A stretch of DNA of 64,000 bases, from the NCBI GenBank assembly GCA_947302655.1, contig CAMYVW010000001.1, positions 404,263 to 468,262 on the forward strand. The letters run 5' to 3'. The DNA comes from an uncultured Mycoplasmatota bacterium. Its GTDB lineage: Bacteria; Bacillota_I; Bacilli_A; RF39; UBA660. Shown here piece after piece: positions 20,756-24,384 of the stretch. Each line of letters opens with the position of its first letter. The first letter of the stretch is position 1. Under the pieces are notes generated by a model. It did not search any database. It was not told the DNA's origin and saw only the letters and a program-made list of their open reading frames with translations. The position numbers and the translations under genes are program-made.

Positions 20756-21304
20756 ATGATTTATTATATTATTTTAGGTGTAGTAGCAATATTATTAATT
20801 TATATATTGTTAATATTCAATAAGTTAACTAAACTAAAAAATAGAGTTAAAGAAGCATTTTCAACAATGGATGTCTATCTTAAAAAAAGATGGGATTTGA
20901 TACCAAATCTTGTTGAAACAGTTAAAGGTTATGCGAAACATGAAAGTGAAACTTTAGAGGAAATTGTTAATTTAAGGAACAAGGATTATAATGACTTATC
21001 TGATAATGAAAAAATAAGTACAAATATAGATGTGAATAAAGGTATATCCAAATTATTCCTTCTATCAGAAAACTATCCTGATTTAAAAGCATCAGATAAT
21101 TTTTTAAACTTAAGTTCTGAACTAACAAATATTGAAAATGATATTGCATCATCTAGAAAATATTATAATGCCACTGTAAGAATATATAATAACAATGTTG
21201 AAATGTTTCCAAGCAACATAGTTGCATTTATATTTAGATTTAAATCACAACTTATGTTTGAAGCAAAAGAAGAAGAAAAAGAAAACGTTAAAATTAATCT
21301 ATAG
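20756..21304 (+). CDS. lemA: LemA-family protein
   Basis: The 182-aa protein has one N-terminal membrane helix (residues about 2-21) and a helical domain with RWDLIPNLVETVKGYAKHES, the signature of LemA proteins. The helical part is predicted to be outside or at the membrane. GAGGTTATAG precedes the ATG. LemA is often encoded next to DUF2207/TPM-type proteins with Gly-rich tails, as here with the next gene 9 nt downstream. Its biochemical role is not established. Confidence 0.93.
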   Translation: MIYYIILGVVAILLIYILLIFNKLTKLKNRVKEAFSTMDVYLKKRWDLIPNLVETVKGYAKHESETLEEIVNLRNKDYNDLSDNEKISTNIDVNKGISKLFLLSENYPDLKASDNFLNLSSELTNIENDIASSRKYYNATVRIYNNNVEMFPSNIVAFIFRFKSQLMFEAKEEEKENVKINL

Positions 21305-21313
21305 GTGATAATT

Positions 21314-23401
21314 ATGAGTTTTAATATATGTATGTTTATTGTTTTTGCACAAGTATTATTTTGGTACCTATTTTTTACACACCTTTTTTCTTCCTCATCT
21401 AAACATCGAAAAGAAAAATATTATAAATATAATTTAAAAGCAAGAATATTCTTGCTTCTAACTATTTTTGTTTTCATTTATGCTATATCATTAAATATTA
21501 AAAAAAGTATAGATAATGAAGAAGCACAATATTCAATTGATTATAATTATACCATTGAAGATTACCTAGTTACATTAGATGTAAATAGGGATAATTCCGT
21601 TAATGTAACAGAAGATATCACAATAAATGTAAGATCAAATGGTGAAATGCATGGAATATTGAGATTTATTCCTATATGGCTTAAGTATACTTCTAAAGAT
21701 GGCAAAACCATTTCAAAAAAAGCTAAAGTTTCTAATTTAAGTGTAGTAGGTGACCAATATAAAATTGATACAGTAAATGGTAAAAAACGTATTAAAGTTG
21801 GTTCTCCAGATTACTATTTGGAGCAAGGTCCAGAACACTACACAATTAAGTATACATATAATTTAGGTAAAGATATTTATAAAGGTTATGATGAATTTAT
21901 TTTTCATGCTTTTGGCGATTATTGGAATGCATATATAAAAAATGCTAGAGTAAAAATATATCTTCCAGAAAAAATAAATGAGGAAGACTTAAGTATATTT
22001 TTAGATAAATATCGTAAAGATGATGCTAGTAGACATTTTAATTATGAAGTAAATGGACGTGAAGTATATATTTACGCAGTTGATGATTACTTATTAGGTA
22101 ATGCATTAACTGTTGACATTATTTTACCGGATGGATATTTTACTGGAGAAAGAAATACTTATGGTTTTATTTCTTTATTATTTTGTTTATCAATCATTTC
22201 AATTACAATCATAATACTTATCAAATGGTTTAAACATGGAAAAGAACTACGAAAATATGCAGAAACAGTTGAATTTAATTCTCCTGATGGACTTGATGCT
22301 GCATCAATAGGTTACATATATAAAGGTGATGCAGGTAAAAAATTGACCATTGCAACTATTATTGGACTTGCAAGTAAAGGTATTATAAAAATTGATGATA
22401 ATACTAAAGATAAAAATTCCAAGATAAAAGGAATTAAAATTACAAATATTAGTAATTTTAATATGGATAATGAAATAAATAGAAAATTAGATGTTGAAAT
22501 ATTATCTGTACCAACTGATAAAGACCTAAAAGTTATTTTTGATAAATACTTTAATGAAAGTGATAAGGAAGTTGTTATATCACAAAATTGTGATGAATTT
22601 ATAACAGATGTTACATCTCTAATCAATGCAAAAATAATTCATATTAAAAGTGATACTAAAGAAGAAATTTCAGAGAGTAAAAAGAGCAAGATAATTGCTG
22701 AGAAACTTAATATATCTCAAAACGAGAAGATTGTGTATGATGCATTATTTGATAGATCTAATATTAATGATTTATATAACGATTTAAACTTTTATAAAAC
22801 GTACAATAAAGTATCAGAAAATGTTATAAAAACATATGATGAATTATTAAAAGATACTGAATCATATCGTCAACGTTCATACGCTAGTATTCTTACATTT
22901 ATTAGCTCATTATTATTCTATTTCGCATTCTTTATTATTAAAGATTTAAATATGAAATACCAATTTATATATTATATATCAGTTGTATCAATTATGGTTT
23001 CATTTATTTTATCATTATTAATGAAAAGAAAAAGTGATATGGCAGAAAAATTATTAGCAAAAATAAAAGGGTTTAAACACTACATAGAAACTGCTGAAAA
23101 AGAACAGTTGGTACACATGGTAGAATCAAATCCTAACTATTTTTATGATATTTTACCTTATGCTTATGTTTTAGGAATTACTAATAAATGGATTAAAAAA
23201 TTTGAAGATATTCCAGTTCCAAAGGCTGATTATGGTACCTTTGACTTTACTAATTTCTCATCCTTTAATGATATATCATCTTCAATAACTTATCCTGCAT
23301 CTTCTTCATCTGGTAGTAGTAGCGGATGTTCATCATGCGGTGGAGGTTGCTCATCTTGTGGTGGAGGATGTTCATCATGCGGTGGAGGTGGATCTTGGTA
23401 G
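21314..23401 (+). CDS. DUF2207 membrane protein with a (CSSCGGG)3 tail
   Basis: The ATG at 21314 has AGGTGAT at 21303-21309; a GTG at 21305 sits inside that site. The 695-aa protein has two N-terminal helices, an extracellular DUF2207 beta domain (about 75-280), another helix near 285-300, a cytoplasmic part, and two helices near 535-580. The final 25 residues are a low-complexity tail with cysteines at 672, 675, 679, 682, 686 and 689, ending GGSW. DUF2207 tails are usually Gly/Ser rich; six ordered cysteines are unusual. The radical SAM gene starts inside the last codons. Tail modification is my inference. Confidence 0.88.
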   Translation: MSFNICMFIVFAQVLFWYLFFTHLFSSSSKHRKEKYYKYNLKARIFLLLTIFVFIYAISLNIKKSIDNEEAQYSIDYNYTIEDYLVTLDVNRDNSVNVTEDITINVRSNGEMHGILRFIPIWLKYTSKDGKTISKKAKVSNLSVVGDQYKIDTVNGKKRIKVGSPDYYLEQGPEHYTIKYTYNLGKDIYKGYDEFIFHAFGDYWNAYIKNARVKIYLPEKINEEDLSIFLDKYRKDDASRHFNYEVNGREVYIYAVDDYLLGNALTVDIILPDGYFTGERNTYGFISLLFCLSIISITIIILIKWFKHGKELRKYAETVEFNSPDGLDAASIGYIYKGDAGKKLTIATIIGLASKGIIKIDDNTKDKNSKIKGIKITNISNFNMDNEINRKLDVEILSVPTDKDLKVIFDKYFNESDKEVVISQNCDEFITDVTSLINAKIIHIKSDTKEEISESKKSKIIAEKLNISQNEKIVYDALFDRSNINDLYNDLNFYKTYNKVSENVIKTYDELLKDTESYRQRSYASILTFISSLLFYFAFFIIKDLNMKYQFIYYISVVSIMVSFILSLLMKRKSDMAEKLLAKIKGFKHYIETAEKEQLVHMVESNPNYFYDILPYAYVLGITNKWIKKFEDIPVPKADYGTFDFTNFSSFNDISSSITYPASSSSGSSSGCSSCGGGCSSCGGGCSSCGGGGSW
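23327..23389 (+). repeat. Three tandem 21-nt repeats encoding CSSCGGG
   Basis: Units at 23327-23347, 23348-23368 and 23369-23389 differ only at synonymous or Gly codon positions (TGT/TGC, TCA/TCT, GGT/GGA). Cysteine codons alternate, so the repeat is kept at protein level. The last unit also supplies the ribosome binding site of the next gene. Confidence 0.9.
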
Positions 23402-24384
23402 AAAAATTTGTTATGCAGTGGCATTTAAGTGAAGTATGCAATTTAAAATGTAAGCACTGTTATCAAGAAAACCATGTTCCTGTTTCACTAAATTATTCAG
23501 ATTTATTACATGTTCTAAACCAATATCGTGAATTTTTAAAAAAACTCAAGATGTTTGGTCATATTAATTTAACAGGTGGGGAACCGTTATGTTCCCCACA
23601 TTTCTTTAAATTATTGGATGAATTTAAAAAGGATAAAGATTTATACTCATTTTCCATCTTAACAAATGGAACATTAATCAATGAAGATATAGCAAAAAAA
23701 ATAGCTTCATATCATCCTGAATACGTTCAAGTAAGTTTAGAAGGATCAAGAAAAACAAATGATTATATAAGAGGTAAAGGTGTATATAAGAAAGTTATAA
23801 AAGCCATTAAATTACTTAAAAAAAATAATATTTTTGTATCTATATCTTTTACAGCTACCAAACTTAATTATAAGGAGTTTCCTATAGTCGTTAAATATGC
23901 AGAAAAGTATAAAGTAGATAATGTTTGGTCAGATAGGTATATTCCTCTGGGAAATAATTGTGATCATGATTATATAATGAACAAAAACGACACTGAAGAA
24001 TATTTAAAAATTATGTCTCAAGAAAGAAGAAGACTAAAACTTATAAAAAGCAAAACAAATGTATCAATGTATAGAGCACTTCAATTTCAAATGACAAATC
24101 AATTTCCATACCACTGCACTGCAGGTTCTACACTTTTAACAGTAATGGAGAATGCAGATTTAGTTCCTTGTAGAAGAATGCCAATTGTTGTAGGAAATCT
24201 TTTAAAAGATAATATGTATCATTTATACAAAAATAATAAAATATTAAAAGATCTGCAAAAAGAACAAATACCCGATGAATGTTGTGAATGTGAACACAAA
24301 GATATGTGCAAGGGTGGACTTAAATGTCTAACTTACGCAACATTTGGTGATTTAAATCATAAAGACATAGGTTGTTCATTATAA
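23395..24384 (+). CDS. Radical SAM/SPASM protein, candidate peptide-tail maturase
   Basis: I choose the TTG at 23395, with GGAGG at 23384-23388 six nt upstream. The ATG at 23413 has no ribosome site and the ATG at 23326 would read the tail repeat out of frame. The 329-aa protein has CNLKCKHC (C15, C19, C22) for the SAM-cleaving cluster, TGGEPL, and a SPASM-type cysteine set: C241, C259 in PCRRMP, C296/C297, C299, C305, C311 and C327. SPASM enzymes often install thioether links in cysteine-rich peptides. It overlaps the DUF2207 gene by 7 nt, whose six-cysteine tail is the obvious substrate candidate. Confidence 0.88.
   Translation: MVEKFVMQWHLSEVCNLKCKHCYQENHVPVSLNYSDLLHVLNQYREFLKKLKMFGHINLTGGEPLCSPHFFKLLDEFKKDKDLYSFSILTNGTLINEDIAKKIASYHPEYVQVSLEGSRKTNDYIRGKGVYKKVIKAIKLLKKNNIFVSISFTATKLNYKEFPIVVKYAEKYKVDNVWSDRYIPLGNNCDHDYIMNKNDTEEYLKIMSQERRRLKLIKSKTNVSMYRALQFQMTNQFPYHCTAGSTLLTVMENADLVPCRRMPIVVGNLLKDNMYHLYKNNKILKDLQKEQIPDECCECEHKDMCKGGLKCLTYATFGDLNHKDIGCSL

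Follow-up and report, generated by a model that had tools for sequence, protein, structure and literature searches.

Within a 64,000-nucleotide stretch of DNA (the window) from an uncultured Mycoplasmatota bacterium, contig CAMYVW010000001.1, three consecutive genes on the plus strand encode a LemA-family protein, a DUF2207 membrane protein and a radical S-adenosylmethionine (SAM) enzyme of the SPASM type. The latter two appear to form a two-gene unit in which the enzyme is dedicated to modifying cysteines in the cytoplasmic CSSCGGG-repeat tail of the DUF2207 protein, a reading to which we give a probability of roughly 0.8. That the tail is the substrate of the enzyme we consider highly probable on the comparative evidence. 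This evidence combines strict linkage, conservation of the tail, the absence of the enzyme from a relative that has no tail, agreement between the trees, and a maturase fold lacking a leader-binding domain. To our knowledge, most radical-SAM/SPASM maturases described so far act on small peptides, with soluble proteins as the substrate in a few cases, and cysteine maturation of this kind, familiar from small peptides, is undescribed for a large membrane protein of this type. The coordinates, the three genes and the 7-nucleotide (nt) overlap given by an earlier, sequence-only reading of this DNA were all correct on re-analysis. The features, with lengths in amino acids (aa), are as follows.

20756-21304, plus strand: LemA-family gene (PF04011 match)
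21305-23401, plus strand: DUF2207 membrane protein, 698 aa, the proposed substrate (open reading frame; PF09972 and PF20990 above cut-off); predicted layout from hydropathy and the positive-inside pattern: extracellular DUF2207 domain, transmembrane segment, cytoplasmic domain, transmembrane hairpin, cytoplasmic tail
23327-23398, plus strand: C-terminal tail CSSCGGGCSSCGGGCSSCGGGGSW, the proposed modified segment (from the sequence and the conservation of the last 17 residues)
23327-23347, 23348-23368 and 23369-23389, plus strand: tail repeats, three 21-nt units
23395-24384, plus strand: radical-SAM/SPASM enzyme, 329 aa from a TTG start, the proposed tail maturase (PF04055)
23395-23401, plus strand: 7-nt overlap TTGGTAG, DUF2207 stop over enzyme start
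23437-23460, plus strand: CX3CX2C motif (C15, C19, C22) for the SAM [4Fe-4S] cluster, invariant in alignments
24115-24375, plus strand: seven-cysteine SPASM region (C241, C259, C296, C299, C305, C311, C327), invariant

Since the repeat tail occurs only beside this enzyme, the enzyme probably modifies the tail cysteines. A search of the genome contig collection with the enzyme returned 12 homologues of 66-73% identity, every one of them directly behind a repeat-tailed DUF2207 gene with the same 7-nt overlap. Once genomes from the family of the window and a further two Lachnospiraceae were added to this set, the orthologous enzyme directly followed a DUF2207 gene with one to three repeats at 20 of 20 loci. 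Within 193 genomes of the same family, DUF2207 was present in 142 and the orthologous enzyme in six, five of which carried a two-repeat tail and the sixth (G186) a single repeat; a degenerate two-repeat pattern matched five of the 193, always at the enzyme locus, and a reversed control gave 0 matches. The enzyme was also present in three of 200 genomes around a Pseudobutyrivibrio metagenome-assembled genome (MAG), two with the two-repeat pattern and the third with one repeat. The tail-enzyme pair is found in some gut and rumen bacteria. Elsewhere in the class the enzyme is rare, as only 2 of 395 genomes carried it, both already among the known loci. A looser pattern (C-GGGG-x-W-stop) matched only the window in 392 genomes of a phylum sample; the genomes listed all belong to the window's class, which makes this result uninformative on Clostridia. 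A plasmid-borne origin was rejected, as the enzyme matched none of 72,556 plasmid records.

Gene neighbours were compared at loci with enough flanking DNA, namely 17 Cys-tailed DUF2207 loci and 28 other DUF2207 loci that served as controls. The latter include locus L118, whose DUF2207 body falls in the tailed clade and which has no tail. The orthologous enzyme was a neighbour at 17/17 tailed loci versus 0/28 controls. The sequence-only reading had proposed this very comparison of SPASM-neighbour frequencies, and the equality that would have counted against it was not seen. No other conserved partner (protease, transporter, RiPP recognition element (RRE) or exporter, where RiPP stands for ribosomally synthesized and post-translationally modified peptide) was common to the 17 tailed loci. 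The overlap took the form [A/T]TGGTAR at all 17 loci inspected, and the TTG start of the window's enzyme sits within the Ser-Trp-stop codons of the DUF2207 gene. TTG is the likely start because the homologues share no later conserved methionine. The radical-SAM frame does stay open upstream across the tail region (MFIMRWRLLILWWRMFIMRWRW...), which is no evidence for a longer enzyme because shifted Gly, Cys and Ser codons seldom give stops.

The DUF2207 protein of the window terminates in (CSSCGGG)3 followed by GSW, ending ...SSSGCSSCGGGCSSCGGGCSSCGGGGSW, and so bears the three-repeat tail described previously; the three 21-nt units are not all identical at the DNA level. The final 17 residues were identical at 16 of the 17 loci, while their DNA versions differed at 17/17. 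Pairwise codon differences over this 17-codon core amounted to 1143 synonymous and 48 non-synonymous, and all of the latter stem from G186, the sole locus of the 17 with a differing core. These codon comparisons show strong purifying selection on the tail and rule out a chance low-complexity repeat. Identity to the window falls to 36-43% for the DUF2207 body, against 62-75% for the enzyme; together with the identity of the tail core, these values indicate that tail and enzyme are constrained far more than the carrier protein. Repeat number over the 20 loci was three full units (n=12), an incomplete outermost unit with its CGGG retained (n=4), two units (n=2) or one (n=2). In 4/4 partial outermost repeats the Cys before Gly was retained and the other Cys lost. 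This retention fits formation of a thiooxazole at Cys-Gly, but simple erosion of the repeats from the far end could also produce it.

In a tree of 83 DUF2207 bodies from which the tails had been removed, all tailed proteins fell into one clade of 19 rows. Inside this clade, L118 (genome G133) has an intact DUF2207 protein without a tail and no orthologous enzyme behind it; a second tail-less row, L119 (G162), is truncated at a contig edge and was left out of the tally of double losses. The enzymes also formed one clade (support 100/98) with the same sub-groups as the body tree. Members from Pseudobutyrivibrio nest inside Bacilli-type ones in both trees, which suggests that the whole unit was transferred. 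In these trees the association goes back to a single gain, with a single clean loss of both parts together, and does not amount to many independent events. G133 also encodes a different radical-SAM/SPASM-like protein of 588 aa, two genes downstream of its tail-less DUF2207 gene (L118:101-1867); this protein is distant in the enzyme tree and may have its own substrate.

The enzyme has a radical-SAM core with the CX3CX2C motif (PF04055, 83 bits). It scored 17.8 bits for the SPASM domain (PF13186), under the cut-off of 21.5; nevertheless, the seven SPASM cysteines are conserved and Foldseek matches SPASM enzymes over the full length, which places it among them. Cysteines C15/C19/C22, C66, C241, C259, C296, C299, C305, C311 and C327 were invariant in 13 homologues, in agreement with the three SAM-cluster cysteines and at least six more that had been counted before, the further ones numbering eight. 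Only the C305-x5-C311 spacing deviates from the usual SPASM pattern; the seven cysteines of the region probably hold two auxiliary clusters. The AlphaFold2 (AF2) model (predicted local distance difference test (pLDDT) score 87) was closest in Foldseek to SuiB, anSMEcpe and SkfB, with the highest TM-score among the solved folds listed for anSME 4k36 (0.81); full-length sequence-profile matches in the PDB include CteB (5wgg). The enzyme lacks an N-terminal leader-binding (RRE) extension, its SAM motif starting at residue 15 of 329. No NCBIfam model reached its cut-off. The best were TIGR04082 (SbtM, 150 bits, cut-off 350) and TIGR04340 (ACGX, 140 bits, cut-off 400). Weaker matches included ranthipeptide/sactipeptide models (PapB, 90.7 of 340; StsB, 73.9 of 625) and the anSME model TIGR03942 (59.7 bits, cut-off 349). 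Viperin, which has no SPASM, was rejected as an identity for the enzyme: the PADLOC pVip models match the radical-SAM core only.

DUF2207 proteins with the Cys tail measure 573-731 aa (60-80 kDa). That of the window exceeded the gathering scores of PF09972 (72.1 bits) and PF20990 (95 bits), had no NCBIfam match at E 0.01, TIGR04222 included, and gave an AF2 model (pLDDT 79, about 30 in the tail) for which Foldseek returned low-TM matches only and no functional lead. Hydropathy and charge predict that the DUF2207 domain lies outside and the tail inside, in the same compartment as the enzyme, as the sequence-only reading had also placed it. A DUF2207 protein of Streptococcus mutans has the same membrane layout, and its deletion reduces stress tolerance and biofilm formation (PMC10457818). 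The earlier remark that a DUF2207 tail normally consists of Gly and Ser alone holds in our tree: CxxCGGG occurred in 0/66 rows without the repeat tail, and intact tails there are Gly/Ser-rich. Paralogues in the same genomes carry Cys-free tails such as GGGFSGGGSGGGGGGSW or GGGFGGGGGGGHGF. The Cys-free tails (L002-L032, L062-L156) have two end types, GGGGGGSW and GGGGGG(H/R)GF, that track a deep split of the body tree. At G186:C79 (L136), two DUF2207 genes stand in tandem and one lacks the Gly-rich tail.

Several known systems resemble parts of the unit. The nearest relatives of the enzyme in these bacteria belong to ACGX systems (TIGR04340 with TIGR04341), in which, as in the window, the substrate gene adjoins the enzyme gene, and whose repeats are rich in Cys-Gly (ACGTACGAG). 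The maturases at L124 and L164 exceed the TIGR04340 cut-off (550 and 594 bits), that at L124 being 28% identical to the window enzyme, and a peptide of 61-65 aa with repeats of this type adjoins the maturase at L124 and L165. These true ACGX systems (L124:4101-4298, L164, L165) occur in a relative of the window genome and in Lachnospiraceae, in some cases followed by a ferredoxin-like gene. ACGX substrates, however, are free peptides about 65 aa long, whereas the candidate in the window is the tail of a membrane protein; no TIGR04341 peptide adjoins the window's type of enzyme, whose neighbour is a DUF2207 gene with CSSCGGG repeats at all loci. Among whole-protein modifiers, anSME is a radical-SAM/SPASM enzyme that acts on a Cys within a complete protein and, like the window enzyme, has no N-terminal leader-binding extension; it differs in its target motif (CxPxR) and its formylglycine product. 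The closest published idea to the DUF2207/radical-SAM pair is that of the TIGR04222 membrane proteins, whose Ser/Gly-rich C-terminal tails contain interspersed Cys and whose genes often adjoin one for a multinuclear non-haem iron-dependent oxidative enzyme (MNIO) (PMC12452194). Both pairings join a membrane protein with a Cys-bearing Gly/Ser tail to a RiPP-type modifying enzyme, and tails free of Cys occur among TIGR04222 proteins too, in over a quarter of the family (PMC12452194). In contrast to the DUF2207 pair, the TIGR04222 pair involves another membrane family, a multinuclear iron enzyme instead of radical SAM, and a tail predicted to be periplasmic, not cytoplasmic. Its linkage is also looser; the DUF2207 pair is the tighter of the two and radical-SAM based. 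A search of the open literature gave no paper that joins DUF2207 with radical SAM, none with the string CSSCGGG and none on ACGX together with radical SAM.

If the tail is modified, the enzyme would recognise it directly or together with the cytoplasmic domain of DUF2207, and translational coupling would place the enzyme next to the newly made tail. Our first preference for the chemistry is that Cys of the Cys-Gly dyads would be oxidised to 5-thiooxazole, with loss of 4 H (-4 Da) per Cys, absorbance near 305 nm and copper binding. Three observations favour it: SbtM, the best family match of the enzyme, acts on Cys and converts it to thiooxazole (PMC11002830), MNIO enzymes that form 5-thiooxazole favour the Cys-Gly dyad and yield copper-binding products (PMC12668002), and copper export and sensing genes adjoin one tailed locus. 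At that locus (L162:823-3740, Lachnospiraceae, G839), a copper P-type ATPase and a CsoR/RicR-like repressor are encoded divergently upstream of the tailed DUF2207 gene. We tentatively suggest, by analogy with these systems, that the thiooxazoles might serve as a membrane-anchored copper ligand, that is, RiPP chemistry on an integral membrane protein, convergent with the proposed MNIO/TIGR04222 pairs; we would not put this at even odds. SbtM differs from the window enzyme in being longer (a 516-position model) and in acting on a selenocysteine/cysteine peptide. Our second preference, a variant in which the tail is still the substrate, is a thioether (sactionine or ranthionine) from Cys to Ser or Gly within CSSCGGG, with loss of 2 H (-2 Da) per link. 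The sequence-only reading had expected such links at 2 Da each; with SbtM as the nearest characterised relative, they are one option only. The full-length profile match to CteB, the Foldseek matches to SkfB and SuiB and the weak PapB and StsB matches speak for it, yet SbtM and ACGX give better profile matches, and the tail lacks an Asp, Glu or Thr acceptor of the kind used by CteB and PapB; we regard it as possible, short of an even chance. By either route, the finished tail would correspond to the plain Gly-Ser tail of other DUF2207 proteins, but in a form that binds metal or is redox-stable.

Several points weigh against a dedicated tail maturase. The modification itself is a prediction from genomics. 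The count of 17/17 does not represent 17 independent events, because the association arose once and was clearly lost as a whole at most once, and the strength of the case therefore rests on conservation and joint loss. The copper neighbourhood occurs at one locus of twenty, and SbtM or ACGX chemistry is not transferable to an enzyme so far under every NCBIfam cut-off. Unmodified CxxC repeats might themselves be ligands for zinc or an iron-sulfur (Fe-S) cluster. In one rival reading, the tail is an unmodified metal-binding module (zinc, copper or Fe-S) that serves the enzyme only as a docking or electron-supply site while it acts on another substrate. We think this improbable: CxxC pairs are classic metal ligands, Ser and not Gly follows the first Cys of each repeat, and L162 adjoins copper genes, but the unit has no further conserved neighbour, the tail accompanies the enzyme at all 20 loci, and the enzyme's nearest relatives are peptide maturases beside Cys-Gly repeat peptides.

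It seems distinctly unlikely that DUF2207 is a giant RiPP precursor whose modified tail is cleaved and released as a peptide. The segment is C-terminal, as RiPP cores are, and the enzyme resembles RiPP maturases; the unit, though, has no conserved peptidase, RRE or exporter gene, and a GGGGSW end is also normal for Cys-free DUF2207 tails, which suggests that the tail works in place. A lineage accident, in which an ancestral gene pair was co-inherited with no biochemical relation, would explain the single origin on the tree, but we find it hardly credible: the overlap and a letter-perfect tail persist while the body falls to about 40% identity and neighbouring genes vary, and the pair is jointly present in Bacilli-type and Lachnospiraceae MAGs with congruent trees.

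LemA had been put forward as a partner in maturation. It stood beside 9/17 tailed loci versus 25/28 controls, and is thus a general companion of DUF2207 and not part of the unit; the tail-enzyme part of that interpretation was supported by the neighbour comparison, the strict conservation of the tail and its predicted cytoplasmic side. Upstream of LemA at L033, L036 and L039 lie genes for a membrane protein of 547-557 aa and for a zinc-ribbon protein, seen at 3/17 tailed loci and 0/28 controls. Elsewhere, L125:3018-8202 encodes two radical-SAM enzymes and a Cys-rich peptide of 81 aa that has no family model, and includes a transporter-like gene; it is a probable RiPP cluster of unknown type.

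On this evidence, the dedicated substrate of the radical-SAM/SPASM enzyme is probably the disordered tail of a membrane protein of 60-80 kDa. One clade of DUF2207 has exchanged the plain tail for a cysteine-bearing tail tied to an enzyme, and in a widespread family of unknown function the unit offers a handle on the role of the Gly-rich tail.

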